A stretch of DNA of 64,000 bases from Cercospora beticola. Taxonomy: Eukaryota; Ascomycota; Dothideomycetes; Mycosphaerellales; Mycosphaerellaceae. Position numbers and translations under genes: made by a program. This document shows positions 7,260 to 35,933 of this stretch, piece after piece. The notes beneath the pieces were generated by a model. The model was not told the DNA's origin. It saw nothing but the letters and a program-made list of their open reading frames with translations, and searched no databases. Within the stretch, counting starts at the first letter, position 1. The number at the start of each line of letters is the position of its first letter. The stretch is from contig NC_088935.1 of NCBI RefSeq assembly GCF_033473495.1, positions 3,906,001 through 3,970,000 of the forward strand, read 5' to 3'.

Positions 7260-10200
7260 TTACGACCACCATAACCACTTTCTCCTCCTCGTCGCTTTCT
7301 CACTCCCCTGCTCGCTCTCATCAATAACCATCTGCAAATCCACGATATCATCATCTTCGTCGTCCTCGTTCCTCGCCATCCTCTCCAGTTTTGCGCGGAT
7401 GGCCGGGTCCTGCTCCATCTCCTGCCAAAGCTCTAATTCCAGATCTTCCGCATTTCCATTTCGATTGCGATGCCATTTCGTGAACTTCCACGGCGGCCAA
7501 CACCTCGCCAGCACCAAGTTTCTCTTCGCAGCAGCATACACCCACTCCATCGTACATAGCACTCCAAATGCCAGCAAAAGTGTCAGCCACCACATTGGAT
7601 CCTGGCCAAAAACGTACTGGAATCCGCCTTTGACGTTGTAAGGACTGATGTTGTTCCCGTAGACAGCCGACATGAAGCCATTCCACGCCCACCAACCGCC
7701 AACAGTGACGAAGAAAGATACCGCAACGATGAGAGTCTTATAATGCGCTTCAACGACCAGACATTTCCAATTCGTCCAAACGATGCCAAGACTGAAGCAC
7801 AAATCTCCAAGTGCAAAGAGACCAGTATCGCCCATGACATTGTAGCGACCATAGGAAACCCAAGAGACGAACCAGACGATAGTACCTTGCACACACGCGT
7901 GAAACATCCACGCGACGTACATTCTCAGGTTCAAGCTGCGGTTGCGCTGCCCGTGCACGTATAGCTCCGGTATAGCTAGCAGAGTATCCGGACGAAGGTC
8001 CTGCTCGAAAATGCCTGGCACGATAACGCACAAGCTGGTGAAGAGGGTATTGAGGACTGTCAATGACCACATCTCGTAGAGAGAAGTACCAGTAAACCCA
8101 GCGTGTTCGCAGAAGTATGCTTGCATCAGGTAGAAGAACATTTCCTTCCAGAAGGTCAGGAGGATGAATTTGGCTGTGCGGATGTATTGGTAACGGCCGT
8201 GGACGAGAAGGAGACGCTGTAGGAAGCGGAATTGAGCGATGCTGAAGTCGGCGACGCGTGCAGCTTGCAGACCTTCCTTGCCTGAGATACCAACACCAAC
8301 ATGCGCACTTTGCAACATTGCGACGTCGTTGGCACCGTCTCCTATCGCCAACGTCAGGCCTGGCAGCCGAGCGCGGATGCCTTTGACGATGTCGGCTTTT
8401 TGCGATGGCGATGCGCGACAGACGATGACGGAGTCGACGTTGGCGATGAGGGTCGTAAAGAAGATGAGACGGAGCTGCGTGTCAGTGTCAATGACTGCAA
8501 GAGTTTGCCCGTCCACAACGACCACTCGATGACTGTCGGTCTCGTGTACAATCTCGCTCATCTGTCTTTGGAGATCGCCCTTGGTGGTGTCCAAAATGTA
8601 GATCAGCGAAGCAGGCTGACAGATACGGGCCGAGTGAGCAATGTTGATAGCCGTCTCGCGTTTGTCGCCTGTCAGCATCCAGATGCGAATGTTGGCGCGC
8701 TGCAATCTATCGATCGTTTCGGGCACACCGTCCTGTAGCTTATCCTCGATCGCGGATGCGCCCAACAAGTCCATGCCTTGTTCAATAAGCTCGCCGGCAG
8801 CCTCGATACGTTCTTGCCTGCTTACAAGAGAGGTTGTTGCCTCCTTGTACACTTTGCTCCACGTCTGGTACTCGTCCGAATCCACATAGTTGTGAGCATA
8901 GAGGAGAGTTCGCAAACCCTCTGTAGCAAAATCATCGATGTGTTGGAAGCATTTCGAAAACAGCGCCGCATCATCCGTGCGTTCCGCAGCTTGTAAGTCA
9001 TCCTGAAGGCTACCAGGATCGAAGCTGATTTTTGGCACCTCAAGCGTTGCTCTTCCTATAGCCATGGACGGTCGAAGCTCAGTTGACTTCGCACGATCGA
9101 TCGTCATTGATGGACGAACATCCATTGAGCTTCGATTGCGCAGAAGACTTGGTCTACCGCCAAGACTGTTCCGGCCTTCCTGCTGCATACTCTTCCGGAG
9201 CTGTTGCCTGCCAATATCCATACTGCGACGAACTTCAGCCGATTTGCGCACCGCCAGCTCTGATTGACGCAATCGTGGAATGATTGCACTGTCGGCGCCC
9301 TTCGTGACGAGCCAGATCTTGCCATCAGGACATCGTACAACAATGCTCATACGCTTCCTCTTGCTGGTAAACTCAATCACCTCCAAGATCTCGTACGCTT
9401 CCCTTGTCTGATCCGAACCAGTGCCGACCAGAAGCTCGATACGCTGGGAAGAGCGGTTCACAAGCAAATGGCCGAGCTCTTGTGCAGCACGAACGAGTGC
9501 CACTTCATCCGGTGATGAGGCCTGGAACTCAATTTTGTCGTCTTTGACCTCAGGTAGGGCAGTGTGACAGAGCGCCATGCCGAGAATGAACTCTTTCGCC
9601 TTGCGTGCCATATTCGAGTGCGGATCATTTGAAATGAGCTGCATCAGTTCCGTGGTAGTTCTTTGTGCTTGCCAGTATTGCCGGATCGACCTCCTCGACA
9701 GAGCTTGCGAAGGTCGCGGGTCGTGTGCAACAGAAGTTGAGCGCGATGTCATTTCTCGAGTTTCAACAACCAGTCCCGGGCCAGGCTTCTCGCTGCAGTC
9801 CGTGGAGATCTTTGAACTGCTGCTTTCGGTGCTTGAAGGCGACGAGTCCAGTCCATGTGTCCACACAATGCCGCCAATGCTCATTGCGCGGAAGTTCATG
9901 ATGTTGTCCGTGAGTGTTCCGGTCTTGTCAGATAGAACATAACTGATCTGGCCCAAATCTTCAAGTATCGTATTCGTGTTGCAGCTCATTGGCGTATTCG
10001 AAGTCTCGTCGAACATTTCCACATCACTCTGTACCATGAGCCTCTGCCCAACTTTGACAATCTCCAAGCTCACGTACAGAGCGAGGGGAATGACGTTGTT
10101 GAACATGATGAGGAAGCCGATGATGATCTGCTGGAAGCCCGGCGCAGCATCATTGAGATACCAAGCGCCGGTCTCAAAAGAGTCGTGCCATAGCAGATAG

Positions 10201-11390
10201 CCGCAGGATAACCCTATAGAGAGCACAACAACATAGAAGATGAGCGTGAGGACTACCTGGTTCGCATACCTCTCCAGTCGAGGAGTCTTCGCGGCCGCGT
10301 GGTGATTCGAGTTCATGCGGATCTTGCACTCCTCGCCAGTGTTGATCACCAATGCATAGATGTAGCCAGTGTTCCGGAGCACGCTGCCTCGGAAAACGAC
10401 TTCGTTCAGGGTCAACGGCATGGACTTCCCGTCAATAGTAAGCTTGCCATTGAAATCGTACAGGTCTTTGTTTGGGTCTTCCACGCGTAGGTCCGCTTGA
10501 ACATGTCTCAGATCAGTGACACTCCCGCATCTGTTTAGCAAATCCGGCAGAGCTTGCTTGCTCTTCAATGTTGTTTCGCCATCCAGTGCCATGGTCTCGA
10601 TGAATGCTATGCCATTCTCGCCATTGCTGTACAACAGAATGACGTCTGCAGGTACGGGCTCGTCACGCCTGAGCTTCAGAATGTCGCCAACCTTGATATT
10701 ATGCCATCGAGTCTTGCAATCCCATGTCAGCTCGTCGTCTTCATCTTGCTCTTTCTCCAAAATGGGCCCCGCATTGCGTGTGCCAACCCATCGCAGCACA
10801 GACAGCTCGGAGATTGACCTCGTCAATGGCCTCCTTGCCTCTTCTTGTTTGTCCACATGCTCTTTCGGACGCAGAACCCTAGCAAGCTTGTTGTTCTCCA
10901 CCTTGTCCATGCGGTGTCTGCACCAGTCATCGTAGCCCTCTTTCAAGATCGTGATGAGTATGAAGAAGGTCAATGGCAGGATCGTGGTGTAGTTTCCCGT
11001 GGTACTTAATCCAGGGATTGCTTGAGGCACGCCAATGCAGATGAAGTAGAAGTTGTGCAGCCTCGTCGCCTGGAAGAAGAACTGCTTAGGCACAAAGTCC
11101 CAGATGGTGTAGCGACTGGATCGGATGGTATTCGATAGAAAGGCATGTCCCCTCCGCTCATCCAGCAGCGGCTTCTCATGGAACGCCCGCAATGGAACAT
11201 GTCGGCCATCCTTGGAGGGAGGAAGTGGTTTCTGGCGCAGTAGGAGCTCGATGATGTATCGTTGGTAGCACAACTCGGCGGGCTCGGCGACGTGCTCTCT
11301 GAACCATGTCGTGCCCTTCTCGGTGCATCGTGCTATCCTCCCAGGCCTGTCGTGGCCAACACCACCACCCTGGCCGTCCGCGCGTCCCAT
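7260..11390 (-). CDS. P4-type phospholipid flippase, Dnf3-like
   Basis: Single exon, 1376 aa from the ATG at 11390; the frame reaches 11522, but only through a TTG. P4-ATPases flip phospholipids to the cytosolic leaflet in Golgi, endosome or plasma membrane. Motifs: N-terminal SSRYTIWDFVPKQ, actuator DGETTLK at about 270 (most relatives have N where this has the first T), IPLALYVS in TM4, phosphorylation site DKTGTLT with Asp at about 488, TGDKRET at about 907, and hinge GDGANDV at about 1017, then six C-terminal membrane helices. The N-terminal signature and the long nucleotide-domain insert favour the Dnf3 class over Drs2, Dnf1 or Neo1. The insert (about residues 708-801) has repeated Arg/Ser motifs. 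The C-terminal tail is acidic and then basic. Confidence 0.9.
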   Translation of the reverse strand: MGRADGQGGGVGHDRPGRIARCTEKGTTWFREHVAEPAELCYQRYIIELLLRQKPLPPSKDGRHVPLRAFHEKPLLDERRGHAFLSNTIRSSRYTIWDFVPKQFFFQATRLHNFYFICIGVPQAIPGLSTTGNYTTILPLTFFILITILKEGYDDWCRHRMDKVENNKLARVLRPKEHVDKQEEARRPLTRSISELSVLRWVGTRNAGPILEKEQDEDDELTWDCKTRWHNIKVGDILKLRRDEPVPADVILLYSNGENGIAFIETMALDGETTLKSKQALPDLLNRCGSVTDLRHVQADLRVEDPNKDLYDFNGKLTIDGKSMPLTLNEVVFRGSVLRNTGYIYALVINTGEECKIRMNSNHHAAAKTPRLERYANQVVLTLIFYVVVLSIGLSCGYLLWHDSFETGAWYLNDAAPGFQQIIIGFLIMFNNVIPLALYVSLEIVKVGQRLMVQSDVEMFDETSNTPMSCNTNTILEDLGQISYVLSDKTGTLTDNIMNFRAMSIGGIVWTHGLDSSPSSTESSSSKISTDCSEKPGPGLVVETREMTSRSTSVAHDPRPSQALSRRSIRQYWQAQRTTTELMQLISNDPHSNMARKAKEFILGMALCHTALPEVKDDKIEFQASSPDEVALVRAAQELGHLLVNRSSQRIELLVGTGSDQTREAYEILEVIEFTSKRKRMSIVVRCPDGKIWLVTKGADSAIIPRLRQSELAVRKSAEVRRSMDIGRQQLRKSMQQEGRNSLGGRPSLLRNRSSMDVRPSMTIDRAKSTELRPSMAIGRATLEVPKISFDPGSLQDDLQAAERTDDAALFSKCFQHIDDFATEGLRTLLYAHNYVDSDEYQTWSKVYKEATTSLVSRQERIEAAGELIEQGMDLLGASAIEDKLQDGVPETIDRLQRANIRIWMLTGDKRETAINIAHSARICQPASLIYILDTTKGDLQRQMSEIVHETDSHRVVVVDGQTLAVIDTDTQLRLIFFTTLIANVDSVIVCRASPSQKADIVKGIRARLPGLTLAIGDGANDVAMLQSAHVGVGISGKEGLQAARVADFSIAQFRFLQRLLLVHGRYQYIRTAKFILLTFWKEMFFYLMQAYFCEHAGFTGTSLYEMWSLTVLNTLFTSLCVIVPGIFEQDLRPDTLLAIPELYVHGQRNRSLNLRMYVAWMFHACVQGTIVWFVSWVSYGRYNVMGDTGLFALGDLCFSLGIVWTNWKCLVVEAHYKTLIVAVSFFVTVGGWWAWNGFMSAVYGNNISPYNVKGGFQYVFGQDPMWWLTLLLAFGVLCTMEWVYAAAKRNLVLARCWPPWKFTKWHRNRNGNAEDLELELWQEMEQDPAIRAKLERMARNEDDEDDDIVDLQMVIDESEQGSEKATRRRKWLWWS

Positions 11391-12203
11391 GGTCGCCGTC
11401 TGCCGCCGCTGCTGGCCGTCCAGTCTGGGGTTACTGCAGCAGCCGGAGCATCTTCCGTCTTCCGTCGTGTCCTGCAACGAGCGTGAGTGGTCCAAACGAG
11501 TGACACCGAGGGTATTGAGCAAGAAGAAGAAAGAAGGATGGAGTAGGAGGAGGTAAGAATGGAACTGGCGCGTCTCACTGCCCGCCTCAATTGCCTGGCA
11601 TTGCCGCCACGACTCGCTTACAGCAGACTACAATAGTGGCACCCGGTGGCATGCGTTCTCCGGCTTTCGCTTCTCCACACACGTTTGCAAGATCTGAAGC
11701 GTGTTCCACTTCATCTTCCATCATTGGGTAGAGAGTGCTGCCGTCGGCTGTCTTGAGAGTCCAGACCACATCCGCTAGTGACAAGACTCTGTCGAACACG
11801 CTGATGAAGAGCTAGACTGCGCCAAGATGACAGCCACAGCAGCACCTCGGCGGTTGTGGCAGCGGGAGCATTCAGCCTCATGCCAGCCGCAAGTGCAACC
11901 ACTCGAGTACAGATATGAGGCCATGCGGATGAGAGCAGGACTGTAGGGCACACACTGTATTACAAGATCTTTGTGGCCGGCGGCGTGAAGATCTTTCCAG
12001 GCCAAAATCATCCGGCAAGCTTCACCAATGAGCTTGCGCAGTGAACGCCGTGATCAGCCTCAGCTCAGCGGCCAAGGAAGCTGAACAAGGACCATGGCAG
12101 CGACGTCTGTACGAGCGGCAAGTTGTTGATCATAAGACGCGCGACAGTCCATCCTGTCCCACCCTGCAACCCAGCCAGAAAGCCCCACCAGCGACCAGCC
12201 AAA
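11391..12203. other. Divergent intergenic region
   Basis: It lies between the start of the flippase gene (minus) and the start of the small gene at 12204 (plus). The overlapping short frames show no family features. It probably contains both promoters. Confidence 0.5.
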
Positions 12204-17319: not shown

Positions 17320-19038
17320 ATGGCTGAGAAATCCGCGAATGTTAGCGTCCAGGCTGCATCGGTCCTTCACGAATCGACCCTGATTTCGAGCTCCTCAGAG
17401 CAACGCACAACCCACTATGCGTCTGGCATCAAGCTCGTTCTGACAACAGTTGGACTCGGCTTGACGATTTTCTGCATTGCACTCGACAGTACCGTGAGTT
17501 TGACCACGGATCTAGTGCTGTTAAGAGTACTGACTTTGCCCTGTGCAGATCATCGCGACCGCCATACCAAGCATAACTGACGATTTCTCCTCTATCAACG
17601 ACATCGGCTGGTACGGGTCGGCTTACTTTCTGACTACATGTGGCTTTCAGCTTCTCTTTGGCAAGCTATACACCTTCTTCTCCCTGAAAGTGGTCTTCGT
17701 TGTTGCACTTTCTCTATTTGAGATCGGTTCCGCGATCTGCGGTGCAGCGCCTACGAGCACCACATTCATCATCGGCAGAGCTATTGCAGGATGCGGATGT
17801 GCAGGATTATTTTCAGGCGCGCTGCTCATCATCGCGGACACGGTCCCTCTGCGATCAAGACCGACGTATACCGGCCTCCTGGGGAGTGCGTATGGTATCG
17901 CCTGCATCATCGGTCCTCTTTTGGGGGGCGTCTTCACAGACAAGCTTAGTTGGAGGTGGTGCTTCTGGATCAACCTTCCTGTCGGAGTGGTGACAGCCGT
18001 GTTCATCATATTATGCTATCGACCCGCCACGAATGCCGCCAATGTCCTGCCACGAGGATGGAAACAAGCTGCCTTGCAATTCGATCCCTTGGGGACACTG
18101 GCGTTCCTTGCCATGGTCGTCTGCCTGGTTCTAGCCTTACAGCTGGGTGGAACAAGGTACGCATGGAGCAACGGTCGGGTCGTTGCCCTACTGGTTGTCT
18201 TTGCAGCTTGTCTGATCGCGTTCGTACTTCTCCAGGCCAGAGGAGGGAGTGGCACCACCATTCCACTCCAAATATGCACACAGAGAACGGTCGTGGCCAG
18301 TGCACTGTTCTCCTTCTTCGTCGGCGGGAGTTTTTTCATTCCGGTGTATTTCATCCCCGTCTGGTTCCAGGCCGTTCGAGGGACAAGTGCTTTCAGTAGC
18401 GCCATCCGGATTATTCCACTTCTTCTTTCATTGATTGTCATGTGCATCCTGAGCGGCAGTCTGACGACACTCTTCGGTTACTATACTCCCTTGCTCTGGC
18501 TTTCTGCGGTCCTGCTCAGTATTGGCGCTGGCCTATTGTCCACGTGGGAAGTCGATAGCTCGCGGACGGTGTGGATCTGGTATCAGATTCTGTTCGGATT
18601 GGTATGCTGATTTGTTCTGAGGCAACGACCAAAAGCTGACATGTGTGGACTTAGGGCGCCGGCGCGGGCTTGCAGCTACCACTGATGGCGGTGCAGAATG
18701 TGCTTCCCGAGGACTTGATGCCCATTGGAACAGCGATGATCATGTTCAGCCAGACTTTTGGTGGCGGAATCTCTGTGTCCGCTGCACAAAACGTTTTCAC
18801 AAATCTATTGCTCGAGGAGCTGGACCCGATTTTCCCGAGCCTTGACCGATCAATCATTCTTTCTTCGGGAGTCACGAATGTGCAGGAGTTAGTCCCGGAC
18901 AACCTCTTACATGCTGTGCGGTTGGCTTGCAATACCGCGACGACCACGACCTTCGTTATTAGCATCGTCATGGCTTGCCTAGCGGCTCCAGCTGCGCTTG
19001 CAATAGAGTGGAGGAGTATGAAACGGAGCAATATCTGA
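17320..19038 (+). CDS. MFS drug/metabolite exporter, DHA2 (14-TM) family
   Basis: Three exons, 17320..17493, 17549..18601 and 18655..19038, with clean phase-0 junctions, giving 536 aa. DHA2 proteins are proton antiporters that export drugs, toxins or metabolites across the plasma membrane. Family marks: ATAIPSITDDFSSINDIGWY after TM1, GRAIAGCGCAGLFSG, motif C-like GIACIIGPLLGGVF, and WRWCFWINLPVG after TM6. About 14 hydrophobic segments are visible and the C-terminus is short and basic. The gene ends 51 bp from the stop codon of the DHCR7-like sterol reductase (convergent), which makes it a candidate member of the sterol gene group. DHA2 genes are also common singletons, so this link is inference. 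Confidence 0.92.
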
Positions 19039-19089: not shown

Positions 19090-20673
19090 TCAAAACACAA
19101 ACGGGACTATTCTCCACTTGACTACCTGACAGTATTCATCCCAAGCGCTACCATATTTGGCACGACATCTGACCTCGTCACGAAAGCAACGATGGACCAC
19201 CATGGCAGTCATTATTATTGCTTCAGCATAAGGGAAGATGTGGCCAGCTCCGCAGACGATGCACGAGGCCCACGTATACACGCTCGAACCAAAATAGTTT
19301 GCGTGACGAGCCCAACCCCAGAATCCTACGCAGTTATTGTCAGCTCGAACGTTTGGGTCTAGCTCGACAGCATACCTGAGCACAACAGCAAGGACTGGTG
19401 AATTTTGCCGTCGGAGGTACGATACTGCACTCTTAGCACCTCGACCTTCTTGCCCCATATCTGGTTCTCTCCGTCGGCGGCACGCGATGAGCTCTTCTGA
19501 TCATCGACCACGTGTCGCATGTACCATCCGATCAGAAACAAAACAGTCAATGCGAGACATCTTTTCGTAGGCAATTCGACGGGATGCGTCATCAAGTATT
19601 GAGTCTGCAGTGTCCAAAGGTGAGGCATCATCGCTGCAAATCCATAAATGCTGTAAAATGAGAATCGTTCATACGATCCATCAAGCGTTTCGAAGAACCT
19701 ATCAGTATGAGCGTTTGGACATCTTCATGGCGCAGCGAAGACGAAACTACGGACCAATTCTCGTACCAAAAATACTCGACAGTGATGGTCATTCTGAAAG
19801 CAACGGCCAGAGCCATGGACGCTGTCATCTTTCCATGCTTCTCATACTGCAGCGCAGCGAAAGATAGGTCACTGTATCTCAGTCAGCCCCCAATGGCATC
19901 AATCTTGAAGAACATGCACACTCACATTAGTGACCAGGTCAATATACCTCCTGTCCGACTGGCGTTGAAGTGTTTCCAGTCGAAAAGCTGGCCGGAACGT
20001 GGATGCAGCTCGCCTCCATTGAAAAGGTCATACCAAAAATATCCTTCTTTCAATCAGCTTCTGGCTGATCGAGAAGTGGGATTGTCTTACCAGTCAGAAA
20101 CGTCTCGCTCTCAAGATCTGGCGAAATTCGAGCTTTCAACCAAAAAATAGCGACTAGGGCTCCCGAGTACAAATTCGCGGTGGCAAGAAGCGGACCCCAA
20201 TTGTTTGCAATATAGGTTGGATCGATGAGCGACAGATACGAGCAAGCAGCTGCCACGACGATGGACACCGACCAAGCTGCAAGGCCGTTCAGCCGATAGA
20301 GAAGACGACGGCCTCCTACCGTCCTTGGTGCCGCATGCAGAGGCCCAGGAAGAAACGCATAGAGCACCGCTTGCCAGCCTACATATCCCAGATAGACCGC
20401 AATTGTACTCGCAGTCGGTCGAGGGGTTCTGCTGGCGAAGAACGATACTGGACCTTCTTCCATGAGAGACCTCACAGCGATTTCGAGAGATGCATCGAAA
20501 TCTTGATAGGCTATCTGATAGAAGGCCAGAAAGAGAGGAGATCCTGTCACCAACAAGAAGCTTGCGATCTCGTTGAACAACATGTGTTGTCCGCCTTTAT
20601 CTTTGCCATCCTTCGTGGGAAATGCAGGATCCGCAAGAGCATCTTGTCGTGTCTCGGTTGTGGTCTGTTGCAT
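19090..20673 (-). CDS. DHCR7-like delta7-sterol reductase (ERG4/ERG24 superfamily)
   Basis: Five exons on the minus strand: 20091..20673, 19926..20043, 19755..19871, 19376..19698 and 19325..19090, total 458 aa; all phases agree. The exon 2 acceptor could also lie 3 nt upstream (AAGAAG). Enzymes of this membrane family reduce ring or side-chain double bonds of sterols with NADPH. Blocks in order: LLYRLNGLAAW (124-134), FNGGELHPRSGQLFDWKHF, FWYENW, LQTQYLMTHPVEL, IWGKKVEVLRVQY with TSDG, GFWGWARHANYFG (381-393) and HRCFRDEVRCRAKYG (425-439). The SGFWG-ARH-NY and HRC-RDE-RC--KYG wording, and the ADG-IWG-K block, match DHCR7 rather than ERG24 or ERG4. The Asp that usually follows NYxG is Ser here (NYFGSS). 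The promoter is shared with the C5-desaturase gene. Confidence 0.85.
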
Positions 20674-21199
20674 CGCGGGTTGAAATGCTGGTGGAACGAT
20701 GAAGATCTGCAAGATCGAATTGTTGTCGGGTCTTCAACATTTCCTGGCTTTCGCAGCATTTCTACCCCTGGCTTCACGGCTTGACAGAAATCACTGCTGG
20801 AAGCATAGTCTCGCTTGTGGGCACGACATCTGCACACATGATAATCCACATGTGCAGTAGGGCTGACCAAGCTTTGGGTGGTTGGGAACGTACGGATGCG
20901 TGGAGTCATTCCCCGGCTACCAGGTCTTGATGCAGGTCGTTGACCGCTAGAACATCCGTCGATATGCCGGCATGGACATGCTCGTTGCTTGCCTCCGCTA
21001 TCGCTGGCGAGACGCTTGCTTGCTTCTCGAAGGTGATGAACTGTGGCTCATTGTAGGCACGTATCCAGAGCCAAGACAAGACGTTGACAGATGGTATCAT
21101 CCGAGCAAGAAGAGCGACCTCTTGGCTGCGAAGAAAGTTGAGTGATGCACAACCAGACACGACTCTCATGTGTTTCGTCCACTTTCGTTCGAATACATC
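20674..21199. promoter_or_regulatory. Shared divergent promoter of two sterol genes
   Basis: These 526 bp separate the starts of the DHCR7-like (minus) and ERG3-type (plus) genes. At 20847-20854 lies CACATGTG, an E-box palindrome of the sort bound by bHLH factors, which include the fungal SREBP-type regulators. It forms part of a looser inverted repeat (20830-20857: ctgcacacatg ... catgtgcag). An 87-codon minus-strand frame (20906-21169) lies inside; it has an ATG but no recognisable content, and I take it as chance. Confidence 0.5.
20830..20857. promoter_or_regulatory. Imperfect inverted repeat with CACATGTG E-box
   Basis: Arms ctgcacacatg and catgtgcag flank 8 bp; the right arm contains CACATGTG. 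Its position in a two-way promoter of sterol genes makes it a candidate binding site for a bHLH regulator. Binding is not shown by sequence alone. Confidence 0.3.
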
Positions 21200-22295
21200 A
21201 TGGATCTCGTCCTGGACTTGCTCGATCCCATTGTTCTGGACTCGGTATACGCCAGCGCAAGGTCTTCATTGAAATTACGGGCCTGCCAAAGTGCTGACGA
21301 GCAAGTGGACGTGTCTTTTGCTTTCACAGGGAATCGCACTCTAGCCAGCACTCCATTATGTGTTCTGGCCTCTGACTCCAGTATCTGGCAACGTAACGAC
21401 ATCCGGCGACAGAGTATCAGCATCTTCCTGTTCACGCTGTAAGAGAAAGACTCTTGTCAACCTCACCACCTTCCTCGTACTGAGAACGACTCTAGCATCT
21501 CAAGCTTCAGCCTCTATCTCATCCTAGGCACAATCTGCTACCACCTGAACTTCGATCGGCAATGGAGAAACGACCCCAAATTCCACAAACATCAAGTCCG
21601 AGAAGAAATCACAGAATCTCTCACAACACTATTCTGGCTCAACTTCTTCACTGTCCCGATATTTCTCGGCCAGATTCACGGTTTTGCGAGGATCTATCCC
21701 TTCGGCGAAGCCAGTCTCACATACGAGATACTGCAGTATCCATTGTTCGTCCTGTTCAGTGATGCCGGGATGTATTGGCTGCATCGAATGTTCCACGTTC
21801 CAGTGCTCTTTCGGTGGATGCACAAGTATCATCATTAGTACGAGAGCCTTCTCCTAAATCATGATGGGAGGATGACAAATGCTGACAAGGCGACTCAGTT
21901 ACGTTGTGCCGACGCCCTTCGCTGCTCACGCTTTCCATCGCATCGAGGCATATATTATGAGTCTACCGATCTATGCCTTCAGTTACATACTGCCAATGTC
22001 GAATGTTGCACAACTGGTGGTTTTCGTCTGGACTTTTGCCTGGACTTTTCTGATGCGTGAGTACACTTCTCGTCTATGACAGTTCTGACATTGCTTATGC
22101 CTACTAGATGATAATCGGGATCAATTCCATACAGTCCATCACAAAAACGTCAACTATAACTTTGGCCAGTTCTTCTCGTTCTTCGATTGGTTGTTTGGGA
22201 CATATTGGGATCACAGCGACTTCTTTGCCGGTAGAACTGAGAAAGAGAAAACGAGTTCTTCTGCCGTTCGCAGGGAAGGAAAGGATCGTTCATAA
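21200..22295 (+). CDS. C5 sterol desaturase, ERG3-type
   Basis: Four exons, 21200..21438, 21496..21837, 21899..22056 and 22108..22295, giving 308 aa. Splice phases agree throughout; the exon 2 acceptor was chosen among three in-frame AGs because it restores the family's spacing. ERG3/SC5D enzymes are ER di-iron enzymes that introduce the C5 double bond into delta7-sterols. The N-terminus MDLVLDLLDPIVLDSVYA matches ERG3. The three His boxes are HRMFH (176-180), HKYHH (189-193) and HTVHH (254-258), with VPTPFAAHAFH between the last two. It is shorter than typical ERG3 (roughly 350 aa), mainly at the C-terminus, which ends in a Lys/Arg/Ser tail. It is divergent from the DHCR7-like gene and convergent with the DHCR24-like gene. 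Whether this is the only ERG3 or a second copy cannot be told here. Confidence 0.88.
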
Positions 22296-22871
22296 AGGTC
22301 CGGTTGAACCCACTCCTGAACAAAATAATCTTGCTACTCTCAAAGTGAATGTGTCAATTATCATCCAAATCACGTACAAAGGCAAGCGGCGTATACTTGC
22401 GTGTTCGTATCATCCAACTCATGCCGACATCGCTCCGGCATGTCTTGTTTCACAAAATTGCCCGAAGCGGGCACTGCACAATATCGCGCAAGCAACCTGG
22501 TTTCGTGGAGAATGGTCAGAACCGACGAGTTGGAAGAAGTCGCAGCTCGCCCCGTTGACCGCCATAATGGTACCGAAGATCGTCATTGTCACAAAGGAAG
22601 GCATTGCAGCCTGCTTGCAGGACCCTGCAGCCCTGAAGATGTAGGTCATACATGACACAGGCACTCAGCCGTGGTATCTACGCTTGAAGATCTGCTCTAT
22701 GCGGTCATCATCGCGAGGCGACACGGAAGAGATAGCGACTACACCGTGTATACGAAACTTCTGCGCAAGAAAGGGTGGGATTGTGCCTTGCAAGTGCACG
22801 TCGTAAAATTTGATTCGAGCAGGCTAGATAGTTATGGCTATGTCGATATCTCAGCGTTCAAAGGCCCGAAT
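22296..22871. other. Convergent intergenic region of the sterol genes
   Basis: It lies between the stops of the C5 desaturase and the DHCR24-like reductase. Open frames exist on both strands but have no family features. It is probably the two 3' UTRs plus spacer. Confidence 0.45.
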
Positions 22872-24506
22872 TCAGTCCTGCTTAATGCTATGCTCGCCCG
22901 ATGAGGCAAATGCATCGCTTCCTCCATGTGCAGAGTCCCGTCTATGAGCTTCCCGCGAAATTTCGGGTGGAGCAGGTCTCGACGCTGCAGTCGGTAACAA
23001 GTATTCAGCTGCAACAATGCATTGCAACCAGCCATACAAGCCCTTCACAGGCCACACGTCCCAGACGGAATGCAAAGCCTTGCCGATCCATGTCTCCTTG
23101 TCGAAGGGCAATCTCTCATCATACTTGTCGACAGGCTTGACCTTCTCGTAAAGATTCGGCAACTTCGAAGCATGGTATTTGGCACGCAGTTGATCTCGTC
23201 CTCGGCGATCGAATATGTGCCAGAATTGCTCTTCAGTGTAGAATGTGTGAGCGTACAGCCACTTTTGCCCCCCACAAGCTTGGATCTCAGACTCCAGTGC
23301 TTTGTTCCAAGCAATGGCTTGTGCAGGATCTGTAGAACCTTGACCCCAGATTCCAAAAGACATCATCATGTCTTCCGTGGGAGAAGTGGATGCTGAGTCG
23401 GCGAGGAGGCCCTGTGTCGTCCCATTCGAGTCCCCTCCCACGCGTAGCGGACAGAGCCAGATTGGGTATTGCTTGAAATTTTGGTCCAGATAGTCAAAGA
23501 AGTTCGAGGCTTTGCTGTATGGAACGGCGACATCCTGGACAACATACTCCCGAGCAAGATCACTTCGGTGCAGTGCATGATACATAAGTCGCGTGCGAGA
23601 ATATTGATCCAGTAACCAGCGGCTCACACGGTTGAAGGGTACAGCGAAATAGCGATAGGTATATTTACCCATCCAAAAAGCTCCTCGATCGTAACGGAAG
23701 AGGTAGTCGCGAATCGGTATGATCTCGGTCCAAGACCTCTCCTTGATACTTCGATTCTCGGCGTTGATGTAGAACCACTGATCTCGCGGCCTGAAATACC
23801 TTGTCACTTTGGCATCAGCATCGATGTTCGACACGAGCTTGCCGAGACACAGGACACCTCTATCGCGTGCAAAGAACATCGCGTCAAGGTAGTGCAGGTC
23901 TTGTTGTTCTTGCACCAATTTCACGGTCTCCATAGCTTGCTCCATGCTGTCGACTTTCAGATATGTCAATTCGACATTTGACTGTGCTGGAATGAGTCGA
24001 ATCGTCAATAGTGTGACAATTCCTAGTGTCCCAAACGAACACGCCGCTCCATGGAACAAGTCCGATCGAGTGGTGTCCGACGCAGTCACGACTTCGCCAT
24101 TGCCCAAGACCATCTCCACTTCTTCGACAGTTCGATAGAAGAGTCCGTAGCGAAACGAGCTGCTTTCACCTGAACTACCTGAGAAGCCGCCGCCGACAGT
24201 AATACCAGGAAACTCCATGACAACTGGCGGAAGCAAATCGTGCTGCAATGTATGTTCGACCAAGACATCCATCGGCACGTTGGGCTGGGCATAGACAAGC
24301 CTTCGTTCGGGATCGACGCCCAGCACGGAGTTCATCTTGCTGATGTTGACGAAGTTGCCTTCGCGGAAAGGCGATGTGCGAGTACTGTTGGTAGACCCAT
24401 GATAGATGCGGAATGGAATCTCTGCGGCGTGGAAGTCTTTGACCTTCCTGGAGACTTCTTGGACAGCTTCTCGATGGTCCTCGTAGCCTGTCAAAGCGGC
24501 AGCCAT
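22872..24506 (-). CDS. Delta24-sterol reductase, DHCR24/DIMINUTO-like FAD enzyme
   Basis: Single exon, 544 aa from the ATG at 24506; the frame upstream reaches only a GTG. DHCR24/DWARF1 proteins are FAD- and NADPH-dependent reductases of the sterol side-chain C24 double bond. The N-terminal FAD-binding (PCMH) domain shows YHGSTNSTR (35-43) and GITVGGGFSGSSGESSSFRYG split across 101-121. The C-terminal half has family marks YVVQDVAVP (321-329), YPIWLCPLR (347-355) and WLYAHTFYTEEQFWHIFD. Unlike animal and plant homologues it lacks an N-terminal membrane anchor; a hydrophobic patch near the C-terminus (LYGWLQCIVAAEYLLP) may serve instead. Related FAD proteins occur across ascomycetes, so sterol activity is inferred from the family and the two sterol genes beside it. 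Confidence 0.82.
   Translation of the reverse strand: MAAALTGYEDHREAVQEVSRKVKDFHAAEIPFRIYHGSTNSTRTSPFREGNFVNISKMNSVLGVDPERRLVYAQPNVPMDVLVEHTLQHDLLPPVVMEFPGITVGGGFSGSSGESSSFRYGLFYRTVEEVEMVLGNGEVVTASDTTRSDLFHGAACSFGTLGIVTLLTIRLIPAQSNVELTYLKVDSMEQAMETVKLVQEQQDLHYLDAMFFARDRGVLCLGKLVSNIDADAKVTRYFRPRDQWFYINAENRSIKERSWTEIIPIRDYLFRYDRGAFWMGKYTYRYFAVPFNRVSRWLLDQYSRTRLMYHALHRSDLAREYVVQDVAVPYSKASNFFDYLDQNFKQYPIWLCPLRVGGDSNGTTQGLLADSASTSPTEDMMMSFGIWGQGSTDPAQAIAWNKALESEIQACGGQKWLYAHTFYTEEQFWHIFDRRGRDQLRAKYHASKLPNLYEKVKPVDKYDERLPFDKETWIGKALHSVWDVWPVKGLYGWLQCIVAAEYLLPTAASRPAPPEISREAHRRDSAHGGSDAFASSGEHSIKQD

Positions 24507-25433: not shown

Positions 25434-25463
<30 letters not shown>
25434..25463. repeat. 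Poly-C tract, 30 nt
   Basis: An uninterrupted run of 30 C on the plus strand, about 450 bp beyond the stop codon of the coiled-coil gene. It is the longest homopolymer I noticed. Such tracts mutate and assemble poorly, so its true length is uncertain. Confidence 0.9.
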
Positions 25464-32837: not shown

Positions 32838-35800
32838 ATGATCCCTCGAATATGGCCTGGCCTGCTGGCCTTCCTCCTTCTGTGTGTCCAAAATGTGGGT
32901 GCCGCCGACTACTGGTTCAATTACCAGACGGGCACGGGAGAAACAATAGTCCTCAACGACAACCGCCAGCCAGCACTCTATACTAGGAATTTTGGAGATT
33001 GCCTTGGCAGCAGCACAATCAATGTCACCCGCTTCGATGTCGCATACTACAAGGACAACATGACAATCCTCTGGCACATGGCTGGCGAGACGGGTGTGAC
33101 CAACGACAGCATCATGATGAGCATTGGAGTTTACGCATACGGAGAGAATCGATACGAGCTCATCTTCAATCCTTGCGATGCCAATATCGACAGCTTATGT
33201 CCCCTCAATGCCAGTCTGCCGATCGAGGCCACCACCATCATTCCAGTCAGTGCCTCCGATGTGGCTGCCATCATCCCACTTGCTTTGACGATTCCGGACT
33301 TCGAAGGAGAGGCCATTTTGCGCATCTTTTCGAACACCACGAGACAAGAGATTGCGTGCTACTCGGCCGTGGTGACAAATGGAGCTTCCTTCAGCCATCC
33401 TGCAGCTGTGGGCACGGTCTTGGGCTTGTTCACACTCGTAGCTGTGATCGCCTCTTTTGCGACTGCCATCTATGGAGAAGCTGTGCCGACCATGAGACTA
33501 CACTACGCGCACTCGCTTTCAGTGGGCGTGGTTTTCGCAGTCTGGCAGCATATCTTCTTCTCTGGAGCTCTGTCCGTCAACTGGGCATCGGTGCTTCCTG
33601 CTTGGTGGAGCAATTTTGCATGGGCTGGCGGCATGATCTATACCGAGAGCATGCAGAGCAACCTCAACAGCTTCATTGGCAATGACCTGGGCAATACGTC
33701 CCAGGTCGGCGCAGCACAATCCGGATCCGCGACTCCTAGCGTTGGCGGCGGATTCGACATCAGCGCCATTTACCGCAGAGCTCTGTACGCTGGTATCAAG
33801 CGAGCGGCAGATCTACCCCACGACCTCCCTGCAAAGATATATGGTCGTCAAACAGAGACAGGCGAAACATCTTCCACGACCAGCTTTTCCGATAGACGAG
33901 ACGGCTATCAGTGGTATGGCGATCCGGTGCCAAACGGTCTGCCACTGCCGGGCAATTACTCTGGCTTCGCTGGCACGCTTGGGTACGAAGGCATCTCTGC
34001 CAGCACTGCGTTCTTGACTGGCTTCCTCTGGTTCCTCATCATTCTCGTCATACTCGTTGCCTCAGTCATAGCCTTCAAGTGGACTCTCGAAGGGCTGATC
34101 CGCATCAAGTGGATCAAAACAGATCGACTCAAGTTCTTCCGCGATCGTTGGATTGGCTACAGCGCTGTTGTTGCACTGCGCATCTGCTACATTGGCTTCT
34201 TCGCCATGATGTTCTTGTCCATCTTCCAATTCACCTACCTCGCTGGCAGTGGCGCGCAGGGTATCGCCGCGATCGTGTTCATTGTGTTCTTCATCGGCAT
34301 GCCGCTCGCCGCTGGGTATGCGGTGTGGTACAAGAAGGCTATGCTGGGGTCTACATCCGGAAAGGTGTACGAGCATAAGATACTCATGGGCAAGGTTCCG
34401 TTCCCAGTCGACCTTGGCAAGAAGGGGCCAGAGCAGACTGCTGTCGAGCTCCAAACCAGCGAGCCTGGCCATGCGCATTCCGAAAGCAAATCTAGTACGG
34501 TGCCGATCTGGAAGCGCATAGCTTCGACCGAGAAGACACGTGAGGCGAACGACACGAATGGAAAATCCCGCAGCATTCACGATGATGACGACTACATCAA
34601 GAAATTTGGTTGGCTGGCTGCTCGGCTCCGGCGTACACGCTGGTGGTTTTTTACCGCGTGGCTGTTCTACGAGTTTATCCGTGCTGTCTTCTATGGAGGC
34701 GCATCAGGATATTCACAAGCACAAGTTTTCGGTCTGCTCATTGTGGAAGTCATCGCCTTTGGACTGATCATCTGGATGAAGCCATACGAAGGACAGCGCT
34801 TGAATGTGTTGGTGGTGTACTGCCTGGGCTTCAGCAAAGTGGCCACGGTGGCGCTTTCAGCGGCTTTCGATGTCAAGTACAATCTGCCTCGCATTCCTAC
34901 CACAGTCATTGGCGTCGTCATCATCGTAATTCAGGGCATACTCACGATCATCACGATGATTGCGATTGTGGTCGGAGCGATCAGCTCGTGGATGTCGATC
35001 AAGCGAAACACCGAAGACTTCCGACCTCGTCGCTGGTATGGGATGCGCGAGAAGTACTTCGATCACCTGGACCGGACGGTTAATGACCTTCCCCGACCTC
35101 CCAAGGTGAAGAAGCCCAAGAATGTCGAGCCTGAAGAGGTCAAGGCCGGCTTCGAGATGAAGAACGTCAAGCGGGTGGCCAAGATCGAAGACGAGGATCC
35201 AGAATTCCAAGGCGACATGGCAGCAGACCCGAATTCAGCCTACATGAGCACAGAGGATCTTTCGTCAACCGCATACGGCAAACGCGCAATGACGCCGCTC
35301 AACCGCAGTCGTGCCAACAGCAGAGCCGCAAGCATCAAGAGCTTTAGCTCGACAAATCTGCCGTATGGCGCAAGATCACACCGGCCAAGCTGGAGCACAC
35401 GAGACTTCTCGCGCGCAGGTTGGGAGCACGATCTTGATGAGAGCCAGACTGCAGGCGGTGACGATGCGATCGCACCTGTAACACCGAACAAGCGGCACAG
35501 CGGAGCGTTCTCGACGAAGCAGCCTTCGTTGCGTCCGATGACTAGCAGCAGCTCGTTACGTGTCGGCGCCGAGGTCAGCAGCACCGATGCCATTGGCGTC
35601 GTCCCAGCACCTACTGTTCGCCCTCGTGCTGGCACAATGGGCTCAGTGCGAAGTTCTCGACGCCTGTCAGGAGGCTTCCACGGCACTGATCATCTCGAAA
35701 TCGAAGTGCCGCCGATACCATCGCAGTACTCATCGCAGCGAAATTCGTACATGTCGCTCAACGCCGACGCTGGCGAGTCGAGCTCGAAAATGAGCACCAA

Positions 35801-35933
35801 CTATCAGCAGAATCTCGCGCTAGCGAGAAGTACCCCGGTTCCTCTTACACCCGCCCAGGAGCATGAGGAGTGGGATTTGAAGCTTACGAAGACAAATTCG
35901 AATGCGAATACGAAGAAATCAGCCCCACAATAG
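32838..35933 (+). CDS. FLC/TRP-like membrane protein (ML-like + TRP domain)
   Basis: Single exon, 1031 aa; ATG at 32838 in ACAATGAT. The N-terminal signal peptide (WPGLLAFLLLCVQNVGA) leads into an ML-like luminal domain of about 150 residues with several Cys and N-glycosylation sequons (NVT, NMT, NAS, NTT). Then comes the TRP-like membrane domain with about nine helices, including HPAAVGTVLGLFTLVAVIASF, FAWAGGMIYTESMQ, WYKKAMLGSTSGKVYEHKI and WWFFTAWLFYEFIRAVFYG. The cytosolic tail (about 280 residues) is Ser/Arg-rich and likely phosphorylated. This is the architecture of yeast Flc1-3 and fission-yeast Pkd2, linked to haem/FAD import, calcium signalling and cell-wall integrity. Which of these roles applies is not visible from sequence. 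Confidence 0.92.
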   Translation: MIPRIWPGLLAFLLLCVQNVGAADYWFNYQTGTGETIVLNDNRQPALYTRNFGDCLGSSTINVTRFDVAYYKDNMTILWHMAGETGVTNDSIMMSIGVYAYGENRYELIFNPCDANIDSLCPLNASLPIEATTIIPVSASDVAAIIPLALTIPDFEGEAILRIFSNTTRQEIACYSAVVTNGASFSHPAAVGTVLGLFTLVAVIASFATAIYGEAVPTMRLHYAHSLSVGVVFAVWQHIFFSGALSVNWASVLPAWWSNFAWAGGMIYTESMQSNLNSFIGNDLGNTSQVGAAQSGSATPSVGGGFDISAIYRRALYAGIKRAADLPHDLPAKIYGRQTETGETSSTTSFSDRRDGYQWYGDPVPNGLPLPGNYSGFAGTLGYEGISASTAFLTGFLWFLIILVILVASVIAFKWTLEGLIRIKWIKTDRLKFFRDRWIGYSAVVALRICYIGFFAMMFLSIFQFTYLAGSGAQGIAAIVFIVFFIGMPLAAGYAVWYKKAMLGSTSGKVYEHKILMGKVPFPVDLGKKGPEQTAVELQTSEPGHAHSESKSSTVPIWKRIASTEKTREANDTNGKSRSIHDDDDYIKKFGWLAARLRRTRWWFFTAWLFYEFIRAVFYGGASGYSQAQVFGLLIVEVIAFGLIIWMKPYEGQRLNVLVVYCLGFSKVATVALSAAFDVKYNLPRIPTTVIGVVIIVIQGILTIITMIAIVVGAISSWMSIKRNTEDFRPRRWYGMREKYFDHLDRTVNDLPRPPKVKKPKNVEPEEVKAGFEMKNVKRVAKIEDEDPEFQGDMAADPNSAYMSTEDLSSTAYGKRAMTPLNRSRANSRAASIKSFSSTNLPYGARSHRPSWSTRDFSRAGWEHDLDESQTAGGDDAIAPVTPNKRHSGAFSTKQPSLRPMTSSSSLRVGAEVSSTDAIGVVPAPTVRPRAGTMGSVRSSRRLSGGFHGTDHLEIEVPPIPSQYSSQRNSYMSLNADAGESSSKMSTNYQQNLALARSTPVPLTPAQEHEEWDLKLTKTNSNANTKKSAPQ

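Follow-up and report, generated by a model that had tools for sequence, protein, structure and literature searches.

What do three sterol-type genes that stand side by side in Cercospora beticola, the leaf-spot fungus of sugar beet, produce? The original prediction read them as a delta7 reductase, a C5 desaturase and a delta24 reductase that together would lead to delta5 sterols. Within the window, the 64,000-nucleotide stretch of DNA analysed here, all three genes, denoted DHCR7L, ERG3L and DHCR24L, were found adjacent as predicted and with intact gene models (Table 1), and their reading frames stay open across GT-AG introns. DHCR7L has five exons (20673-20091, 20043-19926, 19871-19755, 19698-19376 and 19325-19090) and encodes 458 aa; its third intron begins with an unusual donor, GTCCGT, and the same junction is found in public proteins of C. 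beticola, C. kikuchii and C. berteroae. ERG3L has four exons (21200-21438, 21496-21837, 21899-22056 and 22108-22295) and encodes 308 aa. Pfam domains agree with these assignments: ERG4_ERG24 in three six-frame stretches of DHCR7L (80, 40 and 34 bits; cut-off 27), FA_hydroxylase in two of ERG3L (46 and 36 bits; cut-off 31, with a single exon scored alone falling below it at 26 bits) and FAD_binding_4 in DHCR24L (65 bits). Because DHCR7L and ERG3L diverge from one 526-bp stretch, expression of both from a single promoter is possible; none of the SRE-like patterns tried matched in this intergenic stretch. The MFS gene is convergent with DHCR7L, and its membership of the cluster is putative.

Table 1. 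Features of the sterol-type locus in window coordinates; codons were located by hand from the exon table and the window sequence.
Feature	Position	Strand	Basis or remark
MFS transporter gene, 536 aa, two introns (17494-17548, 18602-18654)	17320..19038	+	putative cluster member
DHCR7L, divergent DHCR7-family gene	19090..20673	-	gene model, tree, ortholog model vs MaSR1 4quv
Glu415 codon, clade-typical (Tyr in canonical DHCR7; MaSR1 position 384)	19222..19224	-
Ser394 codon, place of predicted catalytic Asp (MaSR1 Asp363)	19285..19287	-	ungapped alignment
Ile263 codon, place of predicted catalytic Tyr (MaSR1 Tyr241)	19784..19786	-	ungapped alignment
Intergenic, divergent, 526 bp, possible shared promoter	20674..21199	.	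between DHCR7L and ERG3L
ERG3L, divergent sterol C5-desaturase-like gene	21200..22295	+	gene model, His boxes
DHCR24L, FAD-dependent DHCR24-like, Mycosphaerellales paralog	22872..24506	-	one exon, 544 aa

Active-site residues of a DHCR7 relative

Phylogeny confirms that the reductase is DHCR7-like and not a member of the ERG24/ERG4 group. In a tree of 56 rows (52 of the 120 listed matches, the window protein and three further proteins of the same genome), DHCR7L belongs to a separate Pezizomycotina clade of 28 rows (100/100) with a long stem (0.73). This clade is nested in the DHCR7 family, Mortierella alpina branching outside it (99/95), and the fungus's own ERG24 and ERG4 fall outside the family, in a tree that holds no animal or plant DHCR7 and in which both of these branches are long. 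The delta7-sterol reductases of the DHCR7/DWARF5 type include the M. alpina enzyme (PMC10629195). Several fungal classes retain members of the DHCR7L clade, many of them under the public name 7-dehydrocholesterol reductase. Aspergillus and Chaetomiaceae are among the carriers.

The residues predicted to be catalytic put this name in question. In the accessible text of PMC12489058, Tyr241 and Asp363 of MaSR1 form the predicted catalytic pair, a role derived from modelling of Delta14 enzymes and, for DHCR7, a prediction. A comparable DHCR7 pair was modelled as binding the substrate hydroxyl rather than as catalytic in the available portion of PMC4709189, where D409E in Xenopus DHCR7 lowered campesterol by 86.7%. 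Compared with canonical DHCR7, the DHCR7L clade has exchanged Tyr241 for Ile or Val (22/22 readable rows, 6 unread), Asp363 for Ser (25/27, with one Thr and one Ala), Tyr279 for Trp (28/28) and Tyr384 for Glu (24/26 readable), all in MaSR1 numbering. Canonical DHCR7 rows carry Tyr at 241 in 17/17 and Asp or Glu at 363 in 17/17, Delta14-type rows keep the predicted pair (10/10 at each position), and the fungus's own ERG24, ERG4 and second DHCR7 all have Tyr/Asp. The wider search gives the same division: among the 120 listed matches, 37 carry Trp279, with Ile or Val at 241 in 29 of 29 readable cases and, at 363, Ser in 29 of 32 and Thr, Ala and Asp once each; four further matches have Ile at 241, their other positions being unread. 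The other 79 listed matches show Tyr (69), Phe (8) or Lys (1) at 241, with one unread, and Asp or Glu at 363 in all 77 that are readable. The eight Phe-241 matches are also the eight lowest-scoring of the 120 listed (P0113 to P0120) and could be proteins other than sterol reductases.

The cofactor side has been left intact. Residues W352, R356, R395, D399, K406 and Y407 of MaSR1, which are taken to line the NADPH site, are all retained in the window DHCR7L; across the clade, R395 and D399 are present in 26/26 readable rows and W352 in 25/26. For this assignment we relied in part on a residue list in the accessible portion of PMC12489058. The sterol reductase fold is kept, judging from the modelled structure of P0001, the C. 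kikuchii ortholog, compared with MaSR1 4quv (TM 0.94 by target, rmsd 2.3).

Both predicted catalytic residues are absent from the clade, and therefore family membership alone cannot imply delta7 reduction, an activity that had been assigned to DHCR7L from likeness. Loss of the pair with retention of fold and cofactor-side residues, in a protein kept by several fungal classes, would also suit a pseudoenzyme, that is, a non-catalytic binder of sterol or NADPH that acts as a helper or regulator of ERG3L or of the ordinary sterol pathway; the conserved Glu384 and Trp279, however, look more like a new active site than like decay, and we give this explanation little weight.

The DHCR7L–ERG3L pair and the place of DHCR24L

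ERG3L likewise departs from its canonical relative. Its three His boxes are intact in the window protein (HRMFH, HKYHH and HTVHH). The His of the AFHP motif is retained in 7/21 readable ERG3L rows, Cercospora among them, and replaced in 14/21 (by Asp in 11 and by Asn, Glu or Gly once each), the His of PYH has become Tyr in 21/22 readable rows, and the loop ahead of the third His box counts 4 residues against 13 in the fungus's own canonical ERG3, all in comparison with one canonical and one canonical-like ERG3, which limits how defining these features are. Since the Cercospora protein retains the three His boxes and the AFHP histidine, C5 desaturation may yet be its activity.

The two genes recur together. 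Of 24 ERG3L matches, 11 share a contig with DHCR7L, and in four other species the two carry consecutive locus tags, so that the adjacency goes beyond chance. Over 12 species, the protein distances of DHCR7L and ERG3L are correlated (Mantel r 0.75, with 0 of 9999 permutations as high), as is also expected from common species history alone. The pair is not obligatory, because some genera show one gene without the other: a word-based search, which can miss relatives, found no ERG3L in Orbilia, Arthrobotrys, Verticillium, Hirsutella, Thozetella or Ramularia, all of which have DHCR7L, and a search of the same kind gave two Ophiocordyceps ERG3L matches with no Ophiocordyceps DHCR7L among the 120 listed matches. 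DHCR7L and ERG3L are linked in other ascomycetes; for DHCR24L, the only linkage seen outside the window is in Ramularia, where DHCR7L and a close DHCR24L lie on one 1.6-Mb contig.

DHCR24L itself resembles, along its whole length, proteins that bear the name Delta(24)-sterol reductase and is placed in the fungal DHCR24-like family, in line with its original assignment. The genome has three other DHCR24-like genes; DHCR24L is 45% identical to the C1 copy, to which 105 of the 120 listed DHCR24-like matches are closer than to DHCR24L. Its clade is present in Pseudocercospora, Fulvia, Dothistroma and Lecanosticta, four genera that do not appear among the 120 listed matches of the DHCR7L search. 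It is quite conceivable, at somewhat less than even odds, that DHCR24L, and perhaps the MFS gene as well, are mere neighbours and that the cluster consists of the pair only; the number of DHCR24-like genes, the four genera and the size of the shared Ramularia contig, the sole other linkage seen, all favour this, which is compatible with the other readings. Against it, a sterol-type FAD reductase adjoining two sterol-type genes is improbable by chance, and Ramularia does carry both genes on one contig.

A possible accessory sterol module

Another contig (C9) of the same genome encodes an ordinary DHCR7 that has both Tyr and Asp, and canonical ERG3, ERG4, ERG24, ERG6 and ERG2 are also present in the genome; the window genes therefore form an extra set, and the cluster is not the sole candidate route to delta7 reduction, given that the C9 protein has both residues. 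That the three genes are a working delta7 reductase, C5 desaturase and delta24 reductase, converting the fungus's own or host sterols to delta5 sterols (brassicasterol, campesterol or cholesterol-like products), appears unlikely to us. The family membership of DHCR7L and DHCR24L, the DHCR7L–ERG3L linkage, the intact His boxes of the window ERG3L and a parallel in Phytophthora (PMC8984297 and PMC8211186, as far as accessible) point towards such a pathway; the replacement of both predicted catalytic residues and the presence of an ordinary DHCR7 and a canonical ERG3 in the genome argue against it.

With the predicted catalytic residues swapped, DHCR7L may therefore catalyse a sterol step other than the obvious one. 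We favour, at about one chance in two, a two-gene module in which a neofunctionalised DHCR7L and a diverged ERG3 paralog make an accessory modified sterol, patchily distributed across the Pezizomycotina and adjoined in Cercospora by a DHCR24-like FAD gene. ERG3L would oxidise a sterol or steroid, and DHCR7L would reduce the product, or a neighbouring group, with NADPH and without the Tyr/Asp pair, perhaps by means of the clade-typical Glu and Trp, or on a substrate that does not make the customary contact through a 3-hydroxyl. As a further step, DHCR24L may reduce a double bond in the side chain. The outcome would likely be an accessory modified sterol rather than bulk membrane sterol. A bolder version, possible but doubtful, makes DHCR7L a new type of NADPH-dependent reductase that works without Tyr/Asp, its clade-typical Glu and Trp acting on a sterol that ERG3L has oxidised, for example to a keto or enone form, in an undescribed ascomycete steroid pathway retained by several fungal classes.

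Should the name 7-dehydrocholesterol reductase be wrong, a range of ascomycete genomes would encode an enzyme under a false name and a sterol step that has gone unnoticed; sterol biosynthesis is a major target of fungicides. A natural reductase without the supposed catalytic pair also offers a direct test of mechanism in the DHCR7/ERG24 family, a question that bears on Smith-Lemli-Opitz syndrome as well.

Relation to known systems

Homologs of dhcr7 and DHCR24 in ascomycetes, including three DHCR24 paralogs, are already reported for Fusarium in the available part of PMC9605146; the recurrent gene pair with an altered reductase site is new. With DHCR7/DWARF5 delta7-sterol reductases, DHCR7L shares the ERG4_ERG24 domain, its nested position in the family, the cofactor-side residues and the fold; it is 36.7% identical to the C9 DHCR7 over 425 columns, and its clade differs in the long stem branch and frequent linkage to an ERG3 paralog. 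ERG3L resembles ERG3/SC5D, here the fungus's own canonical ERG3, in its N-terminal start and three His boxes (31% identity over 353 columns), whereas its loop is shortened, the PYH His lost and the AFHP His mostly replaced across rows. FAD_binding_4 and full-length similarity are common to DHCR24L and the DHCR24/DWARF1-like FAD reductases, from which it stands apart as a Mycosphaerellales paralog distinct from the C1 copy; reduction of a side-chain double bond is what it may do, on this likeness. A parallel is Phytophthora, a sterol auxotroph that retains ERG3 and DHCR7 homologs and whose P. capsici DHCR7 converts ergosterol to brassicasterol in yeast, according to the accessible parts of PMC8984297 and PMC8211186. 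In both cases plant pathogens have retained the same two families together, but the fungal pair comes on top of an ergosterol gene set, and its predicted catalytic residues are altered.

Gene models and their setting

The gene models bear out the original prediction of three sterol-type genes side by side, here denoted DHCR7L (a divergent DHCR7-family gene), ERG3L (ERG3-like) and DHCR24L (a DHCR24-like FAD gene). DHCR7L and ERG3L are transcribed divergently and separated by 526 bp, an orientation read in the window's own genome only (36.07 Mb, 10 contigs). DHCR7L shows 100% identity to a public C. beticola protein, P0002, across 83% of its length; the public model does not recognise the last intron and so ends early, at 385 aa. 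The same intron was overlooked in C. berteroae P0003, and both models consequently lose the final exon with its conserved cofactor-side residues. An MFS transporter gene, convergent with DHCR7L and a weak match to TRI12 (trichothecene efflux family), could be a candidate exporter of a product.

Features of the window
Feature	Position	Strand	Description
P-type ATPase gene	7260-11522		phospholipid-translocating
MFS transporter gene	17320-19038		intact
DHCR7L	19090-20673	minus	five exons, 458 aa
Region of overlooked last intron	19090-19375		
ERG3L	21200-22295	plus	four exons, 308 aa
ERG3L exon with AFHR	21899-22056		
DHCR24L	22872-24506	minus	one exon, 544 aa
Run of C	25434-25463		30 consecutive C, intergenic
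TRP-type channel	32838-35933		ML-like domain

Family position and predicted catalytic residues of DHCR7L

In a tree of 56 rows (52 of the 120 reductase matches listed, the window protein and three other proteins of its genome, with animal and plant DHCR7 left out), DHCR7L belongs to a clade of 28 rows (support 100/100, stem 0.73) with members from Cercospora, Ramularia, Bipolaris, Orbilia, Arthrobotrys, Chaetomiaceae, Verticillium, Thozetella, Hypocreales and Aspergillus. The clade is nested in the DHCR7 family: it joins ordinary ascomycete DHCR7s at 98/96, and together these join Mortierella alpina P0040 at 99/95. A characterised delta7 reductase is described from M. alpina in the available part of PMC10629195, to which P0040 was matched by species only. 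The ERG24 and ERG4 proteins of the window's genome lie outside this family, and the earlier description of the reductase as DHCR7-like, as opposed to a member of ERG24/ERG4, holds in this tree. The structure predicted for the C. kikuchii ortholog (mean pLDDT 92) resembles 4quv, the structure of the sterol reductase MaSR1 (TM 0.94 by target, rmsd 2.3).

Modelling predicts Tyr241 and Asp363 as the catalytic pair of MaSR1 (PMC12489058, partial text). Xenopus DHCR7 Y278 and D409, which we infer to be the same positions because their spacing of 131 is that of DHCR7L residues I263 and S394, were modelled as holding the substrate hydroxyl, and D409E lowered campesterol by 86.7% (PMC4709189, partial text); as excerpted, the two papers give the pair differing roles. 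On tree rows, position 241 is Tyr in canonical DHCR7 (17/17), in the Delta14-type group (10/10; our grouping by name and tree) and in the genome's own ERG4; the same 17/17 and 10/10 rows carry Asp or Glu at position 363. Among the 28 DHCR7L rows, position 241 is Ile or Val in all 22 that are readable (6 unread) and position 363 is Ser in 25 of 27 readable; the phmmer alignment of DHCR7L with 4quv has no gaps near either position. Tyr279 is replaced by Trp in 28/28 and Tyr384 by Glu in 24/26 readable rows, while R395 and D399 are kept in 26/26 readable and W352 in 25/26. Among all 120 matches listed, 37 bear Trp279. Of these, the 29 readable at position 241 all have Ile or Val, and of the 32 readable at position 363, 29 have Ser (Thr, Ala and Asp once each); four more matches have Ile at 241, their remaining positions being unread. 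The other 79 carry Tyr (69), Phe (8) or Lys (1) at 241, with one unread, and Asp or Glu at 363 in all 77 readable. Phe is confined to P0113-P0120, the eight lowest scores among the matches listed. These proteins, of ~360 aa and the most distant of the matches listed, have Glu at 363, and one is named Myxococcota.

Because the predicted catalytic site is altered, plain delta7 reduction by DHCR7L is less likely; such reduction keeps some probability, since the Tyr/Asp role rests on modelling. The best argument for the original prediction of a delta5-sterol pathway is the analogy with Phytophthora, sterol auxotrophs that have retained homologs of both ERG3 and DHCR7; the DHCR7 of P. capsici makes brassicasterol (PMC8984297 and PMC8211186, as excerpted).

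ERG3L and its linkage to DHCR7L

ERG3L is 31% identical to the genome's canonical ERG3 over 353 columns and has all three His boxes, but the loop ahead of the third is 4 residues long, compared with 13. At the AFHP His, 21 ERG3L rows are readable (three relatives unread; own ERG3 and the canonical-like P0144 left out): 11 have Asp, 7 keep His, and Asn, Glu and Gly occur once each. Tyr takes the place of the PYH His in 21 of the 22 readable rows. ERG3L of the window retains the AFH His, followed by Arg (AFHR; Pro in C. berteroae, AFHP), and Cercospora ERG3L could therefore still be a C5 desaturase. The structure predicted for the C. berteroae ortholog (mean pLDDT 83) gave no match to solved structures at E <= 0.001.

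Outside the window genome, where ERG3L and DHCR7L matches were paired by species name and length of contig, 11 of 24 ERG3L matches share a contig with a DHCR7L match (C. berteroae, C. zeae-maydis, Corynascus sepedonium, C. novoguineensis, Aspergillus bertholletiae, Chaetomium fimeti, Thermothelomyces fergusii, Ilyonectria, Cladobotryum mycophilum, Bipolaris maydis and Cordyceps militaris). Adjacency was read from locus tags in five of these species, the tags of both genes not being given for the remaining six: four pairs are consecutive (CBER1_06941/06942, VTI28DRAFT_9283/9284, VTH06DRAFT_6584/6583, BM1_04763/04764) and that of C. zeae-maydis is not (115644 and 52803). Counting against the linkage, a word-based search, which can miss relatives, found no ERG3L match in Orbilia, Arthrobotrys, Verticillium, Hirsutella, Thozetella or Ramularia, all with DHCR7L. 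DHCR7L and ERG3L protein distances correlate across 12 species (Mantel r 0.75; 0/9999 permutations as high), for which common species history alone could be a sufficient cause.

The sole further linkage of DHCR24L seen is in Ramularia, with DHCR7L on one contig of 1,595,711 bp. Its clade (14 rows, 100/100, in a tree with 31 of the 120 DHCR24-like matches listed) takes in Pseudocercospora, Fulvia, Dothistroma and Lecanosticta, genera that do not appear among the 120 reductase matches listed. Of the 120 DHCR24-like matches listed, 105 score best against the genome's copy on contig C1 (4847912); the remaining 15, among them the protein of the window itself, score best against the window copy.

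We read the DHCR7L/ERG3L pair as a putative neofunctionalised sterol-modifying module; no earlier description of such a pair with an altered reductase site was found among the titles listed by an open-access library.

Ordinary sterol genes and known gene sets

The window genes are extra to an ordinary sterol gene set. The genome also holds ERG24, ERG4, canonical ERG3, ERG6 and ERG2, with three EBP-type matches and, the window copy counted, four DHCR24-like genes, in a survey that left out CYP51, ERG5 and other steps. An ordinary DHCR7 on contig C9 (2390000-2393500), with Tyr and Asp both present, is, judged by family, the likelier delta7 reductase of C. beticola. For Fusarium keratoplasticum, the excerpted text of PMC9605146 reports ebp1, dhcr7 and dhcr24_1 to 3, with table counts of zero for dhcr7 with and without voriconazole; finding homologs of DHCR7 and DHCR24 in an ascomycete is thus nothing new in itself, and the C. 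beticola set resembles this Fusarium set.
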